From assembly GCA_031272885.1 (NCBI GenBank), contig JAISSX010000052.1:1-60353 (forward strand): DNA of 60,353 bases, read 5' to 3'. Of the stretch, positions 6,063 to 13,469 are shown piece after piece. A program made the position numbers and the translations under genes. The DNA is from Bifidobacteriaceae bacterium. GTDB lineage: Bacteria > Actinomycetota > Actinomycetes > Actinomycetales > WQXJ01. The first letter of the stretch is position 1. The number at the start of each line of letters is the position of its first letter. Below the pieces are notes generated by a model. It saw nothing but the letters and a program-made list of their open reading frames with translations, had not been told where the DNA came from and ran no database searches.

Positions 6063-7175
6063 CTACGGCGCCGAGACCGATTCGACCTTGATCTCACCGC
6101 CGGCAACCTGGGTTTGCAGAGCGCCAACCGCGTTGCGGGTCTCGGCTGTGATTTTGTCGTTGAAATCATGGTAGGCCGAAAGCTCCACACCGCCGTTGGC
6201 CAAGGTGCCAATATATGGGTCTGAGGTGAACTCTCCCTGGCTGGCGGCACTAACCACTTCACTGACGGCCGAACCGGATTGCTCCAGCACCGACACCAAC
6301 ATGACTGATCCGTAGTCGGTGGTGCGGTAGCCGTCCGACCCGGTCCAGACAATCACCACGTTGTCCTTCTCCGCCGCGGCCGCCGCGGCCCCTAGGCCGG
6401 CTTCCCCGGCCACCGGCATGATCACGTCAGCCCCCTGGCCGATCAGGTCCAGCGCCAGTGTGTTGGCGGTCGCCCGGTCGGTGAAGCTGTTCACGAATTG
6501 GCCCTGCTGTGCCGTCTTGTCCCAGCCCAGCAGTTCGACCGCGGCGCCGTTGTCTGCGTTGTAGCGGGCCACGCCATCGGCAAACCCGTCCATGTACAAG
6601 GTGACCACCGCCGTCTGCTCGCCGCCGAAGGTCGCCACCTTGCCGCTGGTGCTGTAGGCGGCGGCCAGGTAGCCGGCCAGGAAAGCGCCCTCTTGGGTAG
6701 CGAAGGCAGCCGGCTTGATGTTGCCGTTGACGGGTTGGTTGGCGGCGTCGTACTGGTAGCCGACAATGGCGTACTTGACGGCAGCGTTGGCATCGGCCGA
6801 AGCCTTGGTGGCCTCCGCCAGCTTCGACCCCACGGTCACGATGATGCCGCAACCCTGGTTGACCATGGCGGTCAGGTTGTCGGCGTACTGGTCGGCGCCG
6901 TTCGAGGCCAGCGACTTGGTGGTGATCCCCAACTCGACCCCGGTGCGCTCCATCGCCTTGTAGGCCTCCTCGTTCAGGCCCTTGTCGCTGAAGCCGCCCT
7001 CGTCCGTCACCAGGCAGGCAGTGAAGTCTGTGGCCGCGCCGCCGGAAGCGTCCCCGCTGGCTGACCCGGTCGCGGCATTCGTGGCGTCATCGCCCCCGTC
7101 ATCCGAATCCGAACAGGCCCCCAAGCTCAAACCGGCCAAGGCGACAAGGCTCACTATTGCAAACGTCTTCTTCAC
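6063..7175 (-). CDS. BMP/PnrA-type nucleoside-binding ABC lipoprotein
   Basis: 370 residues. The N-terminus is a lipoprotein signal with lipobox LSLGAC, Cys about residue 21, followed by an acidic Asp/Gly-rich linker. The body is a BMP (basic membrane protein) periplasmic-binding fold, with EGGFSDKGLNEEAYKAM early and TLANGGVELSAYHDF late. Characterised BMP proteins such as PnrA bind purine nucleosides for an ABC importer. Next to cdd this suggests nucleoside capture at the outer face of the membrane. The odd point is that no ABC ATPase or permease lies between this gene and cdd or anywhere else in the window, though such genes usually accompany it. Confidence 0.93.
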   Translation of the reverse strand: MKKTFAIVSLVALAGLSLGACSDSDDGGDDATNAATGSASGDASGGAATDFTACLVTDEGGFSDKGLNEEAYKAMERTGVELGITTKSLASNGADQYADNLTAMVNQGCGIIVTVGSKLAEATKASADANAAVKYAIVGYQYDAANQPVNGNIKPAAFATQEGAFLAGYLAAAYSTSGKVATFGGEQTAVVTLYMDGFADGVARYNADNGAAVELLGWDKTAQQGQFVNSFTDRATANTLALDLIGQGADVIMPVAGEAGLGAAAAAAEKDNVVIVWTGSDGYRTTDYGSVMLVSVLEQSGSAVSEVVSAASQGEFTSDPYIGTLANGGVELSAYHDFNDKITAETRNAVGALQTQVAGGEIKVESVSAP

Positions 7176-7232
7176 TGTCTCTCCGATGGTCTTCCGGGGC
7201 GGGATCGGCCAGGTTGTTCAGGGGCTCTGGGC

Positions 7233-9149
7233 CTAAGCAACAATAGCGTGCAGCACCGTGCGCAGCACGTCCAACCCGTCGGTCGACAAGGCCGATTCGG
7301 GGTGACCCTGCAACGAGGCGAAGCGCGGCCCCTTGAGAGCGATCACCTCGTCGGTGCCCATGCGCCGTACCACCTCGTAGCCGGCCGGGTCGGTCAACGG
7401 CGCCACCCCGGTGAAAGTGTTGTAGTAGCCCAGAGTGGCGGGCCGGCCGAACAAGTTGTCGGTGATCTGCTCCCCCTGGTGGGGCCGGGTCAACTGGCGT
7501 AGGTCCAGGCCAAGGTGGTGGCACAAGATCTGGTGGGACAGGCAGACCGCCAACAGCGGCCGGTTGGCGGCCAGTCGGTGCACGATGACGCGGCGCAGCG
7601 CCTCCACCCTGGGTTCAGTCGAGCTTGGGTCGCCCGGGCCAGGACCGGCCACGATGATGTCATCGGCGAACGATGGCGCCGCCGGGTCATAGGTCCGCCA
7701 CGGCACCACGGTGGCACGCGCCCCAAGGTGGCGCAGTTGGTGGGCCAGCATCTGGCTGAAGTGATCCTCGGCGTCCACGATCGTGATACCCAGGCCGGCC
7801 AGGGCCGGTTCCTGGCCGCCCTGCGGGCGCAGCCAGAACTGCGCCAACCGTTCGTTGCGGTACATCAACGTGCGCTTGACCTGCGGGTCTTCCGCCACCT
7901 CGCCGCTGCTGACAACCTGAGGCGCGGGGGCGGTGTCGGGGGCCGCGACGGACACAGGCGACCCGGCGGCATCGGGCACCGCCACCACACCGGCGTCACC
8001 CGCCACCTGAACGCCGATGGCGGCCAACACCCCGGCCGCCTTGGTGCGGGTCTCCGCCACCTCGCTCATCGGGTCCGAGTGGCGCACCAACGTGGCTCCA
8101 GCCGGTACCGACACCCGGCCGGCCCCATCCACGTAGGCGGTACGGATCATGATGGGAGCGTCCACGTCCCACCGGCCGGCCGCCTGGTCGCGTTCGAACA
8201 GGGCCATGACGCCGGCGTAGTAGCCGCGGGGACGCTTCTCGCGCCGGGCAATCACGGTGCAGGCGTTCTCCATCGGCGAGCCGGTCACGGTGGGGGCGAA
8301 CATGGTGTGGCGCAGCACCTCGCGGGGGTCCTTGTCGGTGGCACCCTCCAGTAGGTATTCGGTGTGGGTGACCTTGCTCATGGGCTTCAGGTAGGGGCCC
8401 AGGACGCGCCCACCGCGGGGGCAGATGGCGCTCATCAGTTTCAGTTCCTCATCCACCACCATGAACAGTTCATCCACCTCCTTGGCGTCCGTCAAGAAAC
8501 GCAACATGCCCGGCACAGTGGGGCCCTCGGCCGGATGGCGGTAAGTGCCGCTGATCGGGTTCATGGTGACCACGCCGCCCTTGATGGTGAGGTGGCGTTC
8601 GGGACTGGCGCCGGCGAAGGCCACCCCAGGTGTGAAGACCGCGTAGGTCCAGTAGGCGCCCTGCTCTCGTCTTAGTAGCGCCCCTAGCCAGGCCAGAACA
8701 GCCTGGTTGGCCGGGCCTTCCACCTGGCCGCGGAACGACCGATGGATCACGAAGTTGGCTCCCTCGCCGCAGCCGATCTCTTCCCGAATGACGTCCTTCA
8801 CCTGTTCGGCGTACTGCTGATCCGCGATGTCGAACCCTTGGGCAGTGAAGGCGGGCGGACGTGGCGGGAGTTGGGCCAGCAGATCCTCGACCGTGATCGG
8901 GGTCCGCTCGGTGGCGACCAGGCAACGCAGCGGCGCGGCGTCATCGACCACATCGAAGCCGCGTTCGGCTATCTGACGGAATGGCACCAGCGCCAGGATG
9001 GTTTGGGCTTCGGCGCTCAGCGGGATGTCGGCCGTTGAATCGACATCGGTGATGGTGCCGGTGAGCAGGTCGACATGCGGCTCATCACCGCGGCGGATCA
9101 GGGCAAACGGCTTGGCGGACGTGAGTAGGTCGGCGATGAGGCTGGCCAT
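7233..9149 (-). CDS. trpEG: Anthranilate synthase, fused TrpE-TrpG
   Basis: 638 residues. The N-terminal chorismate-binding part (about 1-440) carries TVTGSPMENACTVI and NPISGTYRHP. The C-terminal glutamine amidotransferase part (about 460-638) has GPGPGDP, the cysteine nucleophile in AVCLSHQILC and the His-Glu pair in LQGHPES. The enzyme makes anthranilate from chorismate and glutamine, the first step of tryptophan synthesis. The same fusion occurs in rhizobia and Streptomyces; PhzE of phenazine synthesis is the alternative. The ATG at 9149 has AAGGAGA upstream; longer readings run back into the leader terminator. The Trp-codon leader argues for tryptophan synthesis. No other trp gene lies in the window. 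Confidence 0.94.
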   Translation of the reverse strand: MASLIADLLTSAKPFALIRRGDEPHVDLLTGTITDVDSTADIPLSAEAQTILALVPFRQIAERGFDVVDDAAPLRCLVATERTPITVEDLLAQLPPRPPAFTAQGFDIADQQYAEQVKDVIREEIGCGEGANFVIHRSFRGQVEGPANQAVLAWLGALLRREQGAYWTYAVFTPGVAFAGASPERHLTIKGGVVTMNPISGTYRHPAEGPTVPGMLRFLTDAKEVDELFMVVDEELKLMSAICPRGGRVLGPYLKPMSKVTHTEYLLEGATDKDPREVLRHTMFAPTVTGSPMENACTVIARREKRPRGYYAGVMALFERDQAAGRWDVDAPIMIRTAYVDGAGRVSVPAGATLVRHSDPMSEVAETRTKAAGVLAAIGVQVAGDAGVVAVPDAAGSPVSVAAPDTAPAPQVVSSGEVAEDPQVKRTLMYRNERLAQFWLRPQGGQEPALAGLGITIVDAEDHFSQMLAHQLRHLGARATVVPWRTYDPAAPSFADDIIVAGPGPGDPSSTEPRVEALRRVIVHRLAANRPLLAVCLSHQILCHHLGLDLRQLTRPHQGEQITDNLFGRPATLGYYNTFTGVAPLTDPAGYEVVRRMGTDEVIALKGPRFASLQGHPESALSTDGLDVLRTVLHAIVA

Positions 9150-9186
9150 CACTGGTCTCCTTGGGTTTGGCCTGGTGCCGGGCAAG

Positions 9187-9250
9187 AAAAAAACCGCCTG
9201 CTGCCAGGCGGTTGGTTTTGGTGTGCCGAAACTCCCGCCTATGAGGCGGG
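9187..9250 (-). promoter_or_regulatory. trp-type transcription attenuator
   Basis: Four segments are visible on the minus strand. Segment 1 (9245-9250, CCCGCC) and segment 2 (9234-9239, GGCGGG) pair as the first hairpin, and segment 1 covers the last codons of the leader peptide. Segment 3 (9205-9211, CCGCCTG) and segment 4 (9194-9200, CAGGCGG) form the terminator with a 4-nt loop, followed by seven T residues (9187-9193). Segment 2 can instead pair with segment 3 (GGCGG/CCGCC) as antiterminator. This is the classical attenuator layout: ribosome stalling at the tandem Trp codons would favour the antiterminator and read-through into trpEG. Confidence 0.9.
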
Positions 9251-9280
9251 CCACCACTGGGTGTTGGAACGGTTCAGCAC
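9239..9280 (-). CDS. trpL: Trp leader peptide
   Basis: A 13-codon reading frame starting GTG encodes (V/M)LNRSNTQWWPAS and ends TAG. Two adjacent tryptophan codons, TGG TGG, lie just before the stop and inside the first strand of the attenuator hairpin, the defining feature of a trp leader peptide. The start is not certain because only a weak purine-rich site lies upstream, and the frame is open further back. The peptide itself is expected to have no function beyond sensing charged tRNA-Trp through ribosome stalling. It ends 90 bp upstream of the trpEG start. Confidence 0.85.
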   Translation of the reverse strand: MLNRSNTQWWPAS

Positions 9281-9445
9281 GCAGCCAAGCCTACCGCACC
9301 GCGCCTGGGCAACACCCACCGGGCGGCCACCCAAGGCTTCAACCCTCACCTTTGGTGCATCAAGCCAACCAACCCAAACCTCAAGGCGACCCTGGAGTTT
9401 TGCGGCCGCAGCGGGCGGCTGCCCTGGCCGGTACCGGGTGCGGGC

Positions 9446-10772: not shown

Positions 10773-13469
10773 TTAGTCGGTGATGGTGATGGTCCGTGTG
10801 ATACCGCCGCCGGTAACAGTCACCGTAGCCGTGGGCCGAGTGCCACCGTAGGTGGCATTCGACACGGCCGCGATGGTGAACGAACCGTTGCCGCTACCGC
10901 TGGTCGGCGAGACCGTCAGCCACGACTGGTTGGAACTCACCTGCCAGGTGGTGTTCGAGGTCACCGTCACCACGCGGCTGTCGGCCGTGCTGGGCGGGTT
11001 CCAACTGGTCCGGTTGATCGTCAACGTCGAAGCCGACTGCGTCACCGTGATGGTCCGCGTGATGCCGCCGCCGGTCAACGTCAGCTTGCCGGTGCGGGCG
11101 GCCGTGGTGGTCTTCGGATCGGCCTCGATCACCAGGATCTGGTTGCCCACGCCGCTCGACGTATCGGCCCGCAACCAAGCCGAATCGGACGAAACCGTCC
11201 AGGCCAGGTTCGAGGTCACGTTGATGCCGCGCGTGCCGCCCAGCGGCGTCACGGTCCAGGTGGCGGGGCTGACCGTCAAGGCGTTGGCGGCCTGCGTCAC
11301 CGTCAGGCTGCGGGTGATGCCGCCACCCTTGATGCTGATAGTGGCGGACCGGGCGGCCGAAGTGGTCTTGGCCTGTGACGTCACCGTGAAGGTGCCGTTG
11401 CCGCTGCCGCTGCCGCCGCTGATCGACAACCAGGTGGCGGTGGTGGTAGCAGTCCAGTCGACATTGGCCGTCACGGCCACCGTCTGGGTGCCGCCCATCA
11501 CCAGGGCGCTAAGCGAGGTGGGGCTGACCGTCAAGGCCGAGGCCGGCTGGGTCACCACCAGGGTCTTCGAAGTCGCGCCAGTGGCCCGCAGCGTCAGCGT
11601 CACCGAGCGGGCGCCCGAGGTTGACTTGGAGGCCGCCGTCAGCGTCACCGCGCCGTCCCCGGTACCTGCGGTAGGCGTAACCGACAGCCACGAGTTAGCG
11701 CCGCTGACGGTCCAACTGGTGTTGGAGGTGACGGGCACGGTCAAGCTGCCACCCGTCATCGGCGCCGTCCAGGTGGTCTGGCCCCAGTTGACGGTGGGCG
11801 GCTGCTGCGTGACGGTGAAGGTGCGCGTGGGTACGCCTTGGCCGTTGATCGTGACCGTGGCGGTGCGCGCCCGGGTGGTGGTGTTCTGCGTCACCTTGAG
11901 CTGGATGGTGCCGTTGCCGCTGCCCTTGGTGTTGACCACCGTCAGCCAGGATGAGCTGGATGACGTCACGCCGGCGTTCCAGGCCACGTTGCCGGTCACA
12001 CCCAGGTTGAGGGTCTGGGCGGCGGACTGGACATCCCAGGATGACTGGCTCAGTTCCAGCGTGGACTGGGCCGGCTGAGTGATGGTGAACTGGTCCAGCA
12101 ACTGGCCGGCCGTGGCCGAGCTACCCACCTGGTAGGTCTTGACCTGGATCGAAGTCTGGCTCACCGTGACGGCCGAATAGACGTTGTTGGTGGGCGATTC
12201 ATGGCCATTGTCGGTCGACTTGTAGTACCAGTTGATCCACGGCCGGCTGCTCGAGGTGGGCGTCGAGATCAGCGAATACGTCTTCTCGCCCGAGTTGCGC
12301 GGGATGTAGTAGATCAGGCCGTCCGCACCAGAGTCGATGGTCGAAAGCGGCGTGCTGGCATTGGTGGCGGTGCCCCAGGTGGCCTTGCCGGTGGCGGCAT
12401 TCCAGGTGATGGGCTGCGACCGGATCAGGTTGTGATCATGGCCGGCCAGCACCAGGTCAACGCCCACTTCGGCGTAGGTCTTGGGCAGTTCGGCCACGAT
12501 GTAGGGGTTGCCGTAGTCACCGCTGGGATAGGAGCCAGAACCGGAGTGCCGGCCGCCGAATGGCGACTTGTGCTCCAGCACAATGATGAACCGCGAGGTG
12601 CCATCCGGATTCTTGCCGTAGGCGGCCACGGCCTGCTTGACCCACTCCGACGTCCGCTGCAGGCGCGACGTGGTGTACATGTTCGTGTTGATGTAGAGGA
12701 ACAGCGCGTTGCCGTAGACCTGCGAATACTGCAGCGGCCACACCTCGGTGGCCGTGGGGGCCGGTGTCAGCGATGGCCGCGAGAACAACTGCTGCCACAT
12801 GGTGCCTTCGCTGGAACCATCGTCGTGGTTGCCCAGCACCGGGTTGAAGGCCAGCGAGGCGAGGTTGGTACCGGAGGCGGTCAGCCAGCCCATCATGTGG
12901 TCCTTGTCAACATCGTCGACGATGTCGCCCGTGTGGGTCATGAACACGGCGCCCGGGTTCTGCGACAACGCCTTTGACAGCGTGTTGCCCCAGAACTGGG
13001 TGTAGTTGTCTTCGTCGCCCTGGCTGTCGGCGAAGTCGAGGAAGGTGAACTCGCTGACGCTCGCCGCTTCGGTGGTGAAGCTGTACTTGGGGGATTCGTA
13101 GGCGGTGGCGCCAACGTAGGCGCCCACCAGGTAGTTGTAGGTGGTGCCCGCCGTCAGGCCCCGCACCGTGCAGGTGTAGGCGGTGTAGTCACTCAGATAC
13201 CGGGTGATGTCGCTTTGGGTGCAACTGGTAGTGGCGCTGACGGTCACACCACCTACGTCCAGCTTGATGTACGGGCTGACGTACTTGGTCTTGTCCAGGC
13301 CCAACCAGGTGACGACACGCTCGGTCTTCGGATCCTGGCCGAAGCCGTTGTTCAACCCGAAGGGGTCCAACACCCCGGCGGCTTCGGCCGGGGCCACACC
13401 CCCTCCCAAAGGCAACAGGACGGCGGCACTGGCAGCAGCTAGTAACGCAAGAAGGCGGGGGCGGCGCAT
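10773..13469 (-). CDS. Secreted metallophosphoesterase with five BACON-like repeats
   Basis: 898 residues. A signal peptide (about 1-31, cleavage after APAEA) is followed by a fibronectin-III/purple-acid-phosphatase N-terminal domain (about 35-130) and a calcineurin-like phosphoesterase domain (about 138-400) with the metal-binding blocks DFADSQGD, THTGDIVDD, GNHDDGS, LEHKSPFGG and LAGHDHN. The C-terminal half (about 460-898) is five tandem repeats of about 86 residues, each with a conserved SW or TW, SSWLTV and GNGT pattern and ending in a TVTQ-like strand. These resemble BACON domains, associated with carbohydrate or mucin binding. No sortase signal or membrane anchor is visible. It probably releases phosphate outside the cell; the substrate is unknown. 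Confidence 0.9.
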   Translation of the reverse strand: MRRPRLLALLAAASAAVLLPLGGGVAPAEAAGVLDPFGLNNGFGQDPKTERVVTWLGLDKTKYVSPYIKLDVGGVTVSATTSCTQSDITRYLSDYTAYTCTVRGLTAGTTYNYLVGAYVGATAYESPKYSFTTEAASVSEFTFLDFADSQGDEDNYTQFWGNTLSKALSQNPGAVFMTHTGDIVDDVDKDHMMGWLTASGTNLASLAFNPVLGNHDDGSSEGTMWQQLFSRPSLTPAPTATEVWPLQYSQVYGNALFLYINTNMYTTSRLQRTSEWVKQAVAAYGKNPDGTSRFIIVLEHKSPFGGRHSGSGSYPSGDYGNPYIVAELPKTYAEVGVDLVLAGHDHNLIRSQPITWNAATGKATWGTATNASTPLSTIDSGADGLIYYIPRNSGEKTYSLISTPTSSSRPWINWYYKSTDNGHESPTNNVYSAVTVSQTSIQVKTYQVGSSATAGQLLDQFTITQPAQSTLELSQSSWDVQSAAQTLNLGVTGNVAWNAGVTSSSSSWLTVVNTKGSGNGTIQLKVTQNTTTRARTATVTINGQGVPTRTFTVTQQPPTVNWGQTTWTAPMTGGSLTVPVTSNTSWTVSGANSWLSVTPTAGTGDGAVTLTAASKSTSGARSVTLTLRATGATSKTLVVTQPASALTVSPTSLSALVMGGTQTVAVTANVDWTATTTATWLSISGGSGSGNGTFTVTSQAKTTSAARSATISIKGGGITRSLTVTQAANALTVSPATWTVTPLGGTRGINVTSNLAWTVSSDSAWLRADTSSGVGNQILVIEADPKTTTAARTGKLTLTGGGITRTITVTQSASTLTINRTSWNPPSTADSRVVTVTSNTTWQVSSNQSWLTVSPTSGSGNGSFTIAAVSNATYGGTRPTATVTVTGGGITRTITITD

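Follow-up and report, generated by a model that had tools for sequence, protein, structure and literature searches.

In the enterobacterial trp leader, transcription is controlled by the interplay of four RNA regions (1–4), and the same logic applies to the locus described here. In actinobacteria, the trp attenuator of Streptomyces venezuelae trpEG was reportedly studied by Lin et al. in 1998. In Streptomyces lividans, TrpL1 is reported from RNA-seq to be leaderless, with a Rho-independent terminator; the trpL1-trpE gene of this species is monocistronic (PMC8079986). Classical attenuators of Corynebacterium and Streptomyces, with double or triple UGG, GC-rich terminators and complementary triples, are covered by Seliverstov et al. 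(2005), the accessible part of which reports trp attenuators for these two genera only (PMC1262725).

The present analysis concerns a stretch of 60,353 nucleotides, referred to as the window, from a Bifidobacteriaceae bacterium, an actinobacterium of gut type. Between positions 9280 and 9187, its minus strand harbours a leader ORF, a 1:2 hairpin, an antiterminator and a terminator, directly upstream of trpEG. A preliminary description had read this arrangement as Trp attenuation, and this reading is borne out by the conservation of the leader with its two adjacent Trp codons (WW leader), compensatory changes in the terminator, swap tests, and a setting shared with Streptomyces TrpEG. We put at about 93% the probability that the sole anthranilate synthase, a PhzE-type TrpEG, is under ribosome-mediated trp transcription attenuation. 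The features are as follows, with the basis of each assignment in brackets.

9288–9293, minus strand: −10-like box TAGGCT (TAnnnT), 7 nt upstream of the leader start codon (sequence)
9239–9280, minus strand: leader peptide ORF, VLNRSNTQWWPAS and stop, probably leaderless (translation; homologous leaders)
9251–9256, minus strand: tandem, adjacent TGG (Trp) control codons (translation; alignment)
9273–9280, minus strand: 5′ arm of the P0 helix, GUGCUGAA, includes the start codon (fold; swap tests)
9223–9230, minus strand: 3′ arm of the P0 helix, UUCGGCAC (fold; swap tests)
9244–9250, minus strand: region 1, CCCGCCU (fold; swap test; alignment)
9234–9240, minus strand: region 2, AGGCGGG, overlaps the stop codon (fold; swap test; alignment)
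9229–9241, minus strand: 5′ arm of the antiterminator, UAGGCGG and GUUU (fold)
9205–9218, minus strand: 3′ arm of the antiterminator, AAAC and CCGCCUG, contains region 3 (fold)
9187–9213, minus strand: 3:4 intrinsic terminator (fold; compensatory changes in relatives)
9157–9160, minus strand: GGAG, Shine-Dalgarno sequence of trpEG (sequence)
7233–9149, minus strand: trpEG, fused PhzE-type anthranilate synthase, 638 aa (ORF; domain and similarity searches)
6063–7175, minus strand: BMP-family (PnrA-like) lipoprotein gene, 57 nt downstream of trpEG

The leader ORF comprises 13 codons and starts with GTG. All four elements named in the preliminary description are found: the tandem TGG codons (9256–9251), which are invariant in an alignment of 42 leaders; the 1:2 hairpin over the 3′ end of the leader (CCCGCCU/AGGCGGG), which overlaps the stop codon; the 2:3 antiterminator, there called possible; and the 3:4 terminator with its T tract. 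The terminator stem, AACCGCCUG-GCAG-CAGGCGGUU, pairs 9213–9205 with 9200–9192 and runs into seven Ts (9193–9187), 37 nt upstream of the trpEG start codon. In RNA numbering, with position 1 at 9280, region 1 spans 31–37, region 2 41–47, the 3:4 terminator 68–89 and the seven U 88–94.

The 99-nt leader segment folds at −43.8 kcal/mol (z −3.87), and none of 200 shuffles is as stable. The terminator alone has a z-score of −3.84 and the antiterminator one of −3.45. It had been expected that competing minima would appear on folding 9150–9300; this wider segment is not unusual (z −1.35) because unrelated flanks dilute the leader signal, but the competing 2:3 and 3:4 states are found in the narrower leader. 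When region 1 is covered and region 4 not yet transcribed, the antiterminator (UAGGCGG..GUUU/AAAC..CCGCCUG) has a predicted energy of −15.5 kcal/mol; that of the 3:4 terminator is −15.9 kcal/mol. With the rival structure forbidden in RNA 38–99, the antiterminator is nearly as stable as the terminator (−15.8 versus −16.4 kcal/mol, a gap of 0.6). The 2:3 and 3:4 structures are mutually exclusive and of near-equal energy in these models. In the predicted folds, the terminator forms when a ribosome is placed at the stop codon, while untranslated RNA contains the start-codon helix and the 1:2 hairpin (−27.4 for 1–60) plus the terminator. The RNA stretch covered by the ribosome is an assumption taken from established toeprint distances.

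From the ORF, stems, energies, conservation and covariation computed here, we infer transcription start, ribosome stalling and read-through. Transcription would start at or adjoining the GTG, and the first ribosome would load on the 5′ end. When charged tRNA-Trp is scarce, the ribosome would stall at codons 9–10 and cover region 1; this would leave region 2 free to pair with region 3 while region 4 is still to be made, and the polymerase would continue into trpEG. When Trp is plentiful, the ribosome would reach the stop codon inside region 2 and cover that region, upon which the 3:4 terminator would form. If no ribosome has loaded, region 2 would be occupied by P0 and the 1:2 hairpin, and the terminator would also form.

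The preliminary description had looked to relatives for conserved TGG codons, and a WW leader ORF indeed lies upstream in 74 of 80 homologous loci from many families, from Microbacterium to Streptomycetaceae. The six loci lacking it comprise two near a contig edge (L038, L079), two from Bifidobacteriaceae MAGs and two Streptomyces copies, which sit on a separate branch of the protein tree. Several relatives have weak or absent T tracts (L013, L017, L019). A covariance model has one significant match in the own genome (2.95 Mb), at the leader site (E 2e-13; next 0.04), and detects the leader in 129 of the 297 genomes sampled from the class; a PhzE-type TrpEG is the longest ORF in 11 of the 38 model-match loci examined. 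No convincing second WW leader was found on trpD or trpC-trpB-trpA of the own genome, nor any further significant model match there.

The leader model also matches upstream of tryptophan--tRNA ligase genes (L154, L159, L168, L185), where short WW or WWW leaders occur. QWWRR-type leaders are also found before TrpE-clade3, a fused anthranilate synthase of another type (L155:160–2295), so that in actinobacteria a single kind of attenuator serves two distinct TrpEG fusions. Four trpS genes and one TrpE-clade3 fused synthase behind such leaders were confirmed by NCBIfam.

Covariation, likewise anticipated in relatives, is seen in the terminator but not in the 2:3 core (GGCGG/CCGCC), which hardly varies and makes column covariation uninformative. 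In the 42-sequence alignment, three terminator pairs have changes on both sides (C-G to A-U and U-A; A-U to G-C; G-C to A-U). The 1:2 and 3:4 stems together show 30 double-change cells versus 11 in shuffles, an excess that is supportive rather than conclusive, because related sequences can exceed such shuffles. In an alignment-free swap test, run at four redundancy levels, the complementarity between the arms of each leader is measured against that obtained when arms are exchanged between species. This gives z-scores of −3.7 to −4.8 for 1:2 and, more weakly, −2.1 to −2.4 for 2:3; control segment pairs lie between −0.2 and +1.7.

The upstream DNA reads TAGGCT, 7 nt, GTG, and has no Shine-Dalgarno sequence before the GTG. 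Among 79 leaders, 75 have TAnnnT 6–7 nt upstream of the start (background 0.06 per position, all 79 together) and only two an SD-like 4-mer. Where several start codons were possible, the one preceded by TAnnnT was preferred; most leaders have a single candidate. The leader mRNA is probably leaderless and translated from its 5′ end, because the leader ORF begins 7 nt after a TAnnnT box and has no ribosome-binding site.

The one less familiar feature of the leader is P0. In this helix, the first nucleotides of the leader, including the start codon, pair with the spacer after region 2 (GUGCUGAA with UUCGGCAC), thus enclosing the 1:2 hairpin. The start-codon nucleotides fall inside the predicted helix in 33 of 42 representatives. 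The register of P0 shifts between species, so that column pairs show it poorly; therefore, swap tests were used instead of column covariation. Own pairing exceeds swapped pairing with z-scores of −4.9 to −8.1, and 0 of 20,000 permutations reach the own value. Repeating this on 25 leaders absent from the 42-leader alignment (from Streptomyces-type, trpS and TrpE-clade3 loci) gives z −5.8, or −4.7 after removal of near-copies (18 leaders; 1 of 20,000 permutations reaches the own value). In a few loci of this second set (e.g. L158, L164), the arms chosen automatically put the hairpin or the terminator in the wrong place, an error expected to lower the signal, not to produce it. The P0 helix is conserved by compensatory change.

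P0 may close transcripts that carry no ribosome, locking them into termination by keeping region 2 from region 3; a role in pausing is possible. Searching the literature for similar locks at a start codon retrieved nothing clearly on point, with key older papers outside its reach. Tentatively, and with the odds rather against it, actinobacterial trp leaders might share an undescribed lock of this sort: the leaderless 5′ start-codon region would pair behind region 2, and a ribosome would have to load before about 60 nt are made, with termination as the alternative. In that case the switch would sense not only Trp but also ribosome loading. This is a testable idea for leaderless attenuators with ribosome-free transcripts.

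Three other explanations of the locus can be weighed against attenuation of a tryptophan gene. Short ORFs and G+C-rich stems are common in G+C-rich sequence such as this, where an ordinary terminator might follow a chance ORF and regulate nothing; but the z-score of the leader fold (−3.87), the identical arrangement before 74 of 80 homologues, the covariation, and the single significant model match in 2.95 Mb all contradict this. The comparative evidence refutes it, and its probability is practically nil. It is improbable, too, that attenuation is only part of the function, with the terminated leader RNA or peptide also acting in trans on other genes. Such action would be in keeping with a short, leaderless leader ORF and with a terminated RNA about 95 nt long, and rnTrpL/peTrpL of Sinorhizobium meliloti provides a precedent for it in the accessible portion of PMC7298713. 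Against it, there is little conservation in the leader peptide apart from WW-P-A, and the conservation of WW-P-A is itself explained by the 1:2 stem.

The third explanation touches the enzyme. The term "fused TrpEG" in the preliminary description was right as to the fusion, but the protein (P0001), with its chorismate-binding and GATase domains, is a PhzE-type fused chorismate enzyme. Its match to PhzE (3R74) spans almost the whole protein (E 9e-147, 493 bits), while TrpE chains score about 46–55 bits and the NCBIfam fused anthranilate synthase models 113–125 bits, far below their cut-offs of 645–739; for TIGR01815 (TrpE-clade3 fused anthranilate synthase), the score is 113.5 bits and the cut-off of 739 bits is not reached. 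A role in secondary metabolism, as an ADIC synthase and not a tryptophan enzyme, would fit these scores. It is nevertheless very improbable in view of the Trp codons in the leader and of a genome that has trpD, trpC, trpB and trpA and in which TrpEG appears to be the only candidate anthranilate synthase, because the sole other chorismate-binding gene, next to a menG/ubiE-like methyltransferase, looks like an isochorismate synthase (our naming). Moreover, according to the title of Ashenafi 2008, cited in PMC3111181, S. venezuelae has a PhzE-like TrpEG that is an anthranilate synthase, not an ADIC synthase. Attenuation of a tryptophan gene thus stays the preferred reading.

The other trp genes lie elsewhere in the genome: trpD is on C26, while trpC, a tryptophan synthase beta-chain ORF (trpB in our reading) and trpA are on C50, near a hisI-like ORF. 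There is nothing unusual in trpEG standing alone, given that its S. lividans counterpart is monocistronic as well. The 57 nt (7176–7232) that separate trpEG from the lipoprotein gene contain no terminator. The lipoprotein gene is possibly on the same transcript, and the attenuator may therefore also affect a putative nucleoside transporter component; the same gene order occurs in L004. Elsewhere in the window (10773–13469), a metallophosphoesterase ORF carries five BACON-type repeats, a feature that appears uncommon for actinobacteria.

The closest named relatives of the genome are Bifidobacteriaceae MAGs (L033, L034), taken to be from termite gut on the basis of their isolate names. A tree of 89 proteins places the family of the window in a single group, whose members differ as to the leader: the window's genus and L017 have it, while genus g6 and L010 lack it. 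Sister-genus Bifidobacteriaceae MAGs (L005–L009, L011, L012, L014–L016, L033, L034) have a PhzE-type trpEG without the leader, in most copies directly following an NAD synthetase-like gene (C-terminus, in our reading). Leader control is dispensable in g6, because the whole genus keeps trpEG without it. The TrpEG of L017 (550–2970) has a repeat-filled insertion in its C-terminal half, and its leader lacks the T tract.

In searches of the whole window at the Rfam gathering threshold, only tRNAs were matched and no Trp_leader, and the relaxed threshold gave only chance matches near the leader site. The WW leader is nonetheless the usual arrangement for PhzE-type TrpEG in actinobacteria, even though no Rfam family matches here. 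PhzE itself (3R74) shares domain order and near full-length similarity with the enzyme; genome content and the Trp leader point instead to tryptophan synthesis in the present case. The leader is of use in annotation: where it contains WW and stands before a PhzE-like gene, that gene most likely belongs to tryptophan rather than phenazine synthesis. The tryptophan control of a Bifidobacteriaceae-like lineage is placed on such a PhzE-type TrpEG.

S. venezuelae trpEG and S. lividans trpL1-trpE likewise have a leader with tandem UGG and a terminator before a monocistronic gene. Where the leader resembles MFAHSTQNWWWTAHPAAH, which is almost the same as S. lividans TrpL1, the locus encodes a PhzE-type TrpEG 46–47% identical to P0001. 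Compared with this Streptomyces type, the leader sequence differs, there are two Trp codons instead of three, and the stop codon lies inside region 2 rather than beyond it. Double or triple UGG, a GC-rich terminator and complementary triples are shared with the actinobacterial attenuators in the accessible part of Seliverstov et al. (2005; PMC1262725), although the core triple given there is gGCC-rGCy-GGCC, versus GGCGG/CCGCC here. The attenuator is of a kind already known from Streptomyces and common in actinobacteria, and so not new in kind; from the enterobacterial trp leader it differs in its probably leaderless ORF with a start-codon helix.
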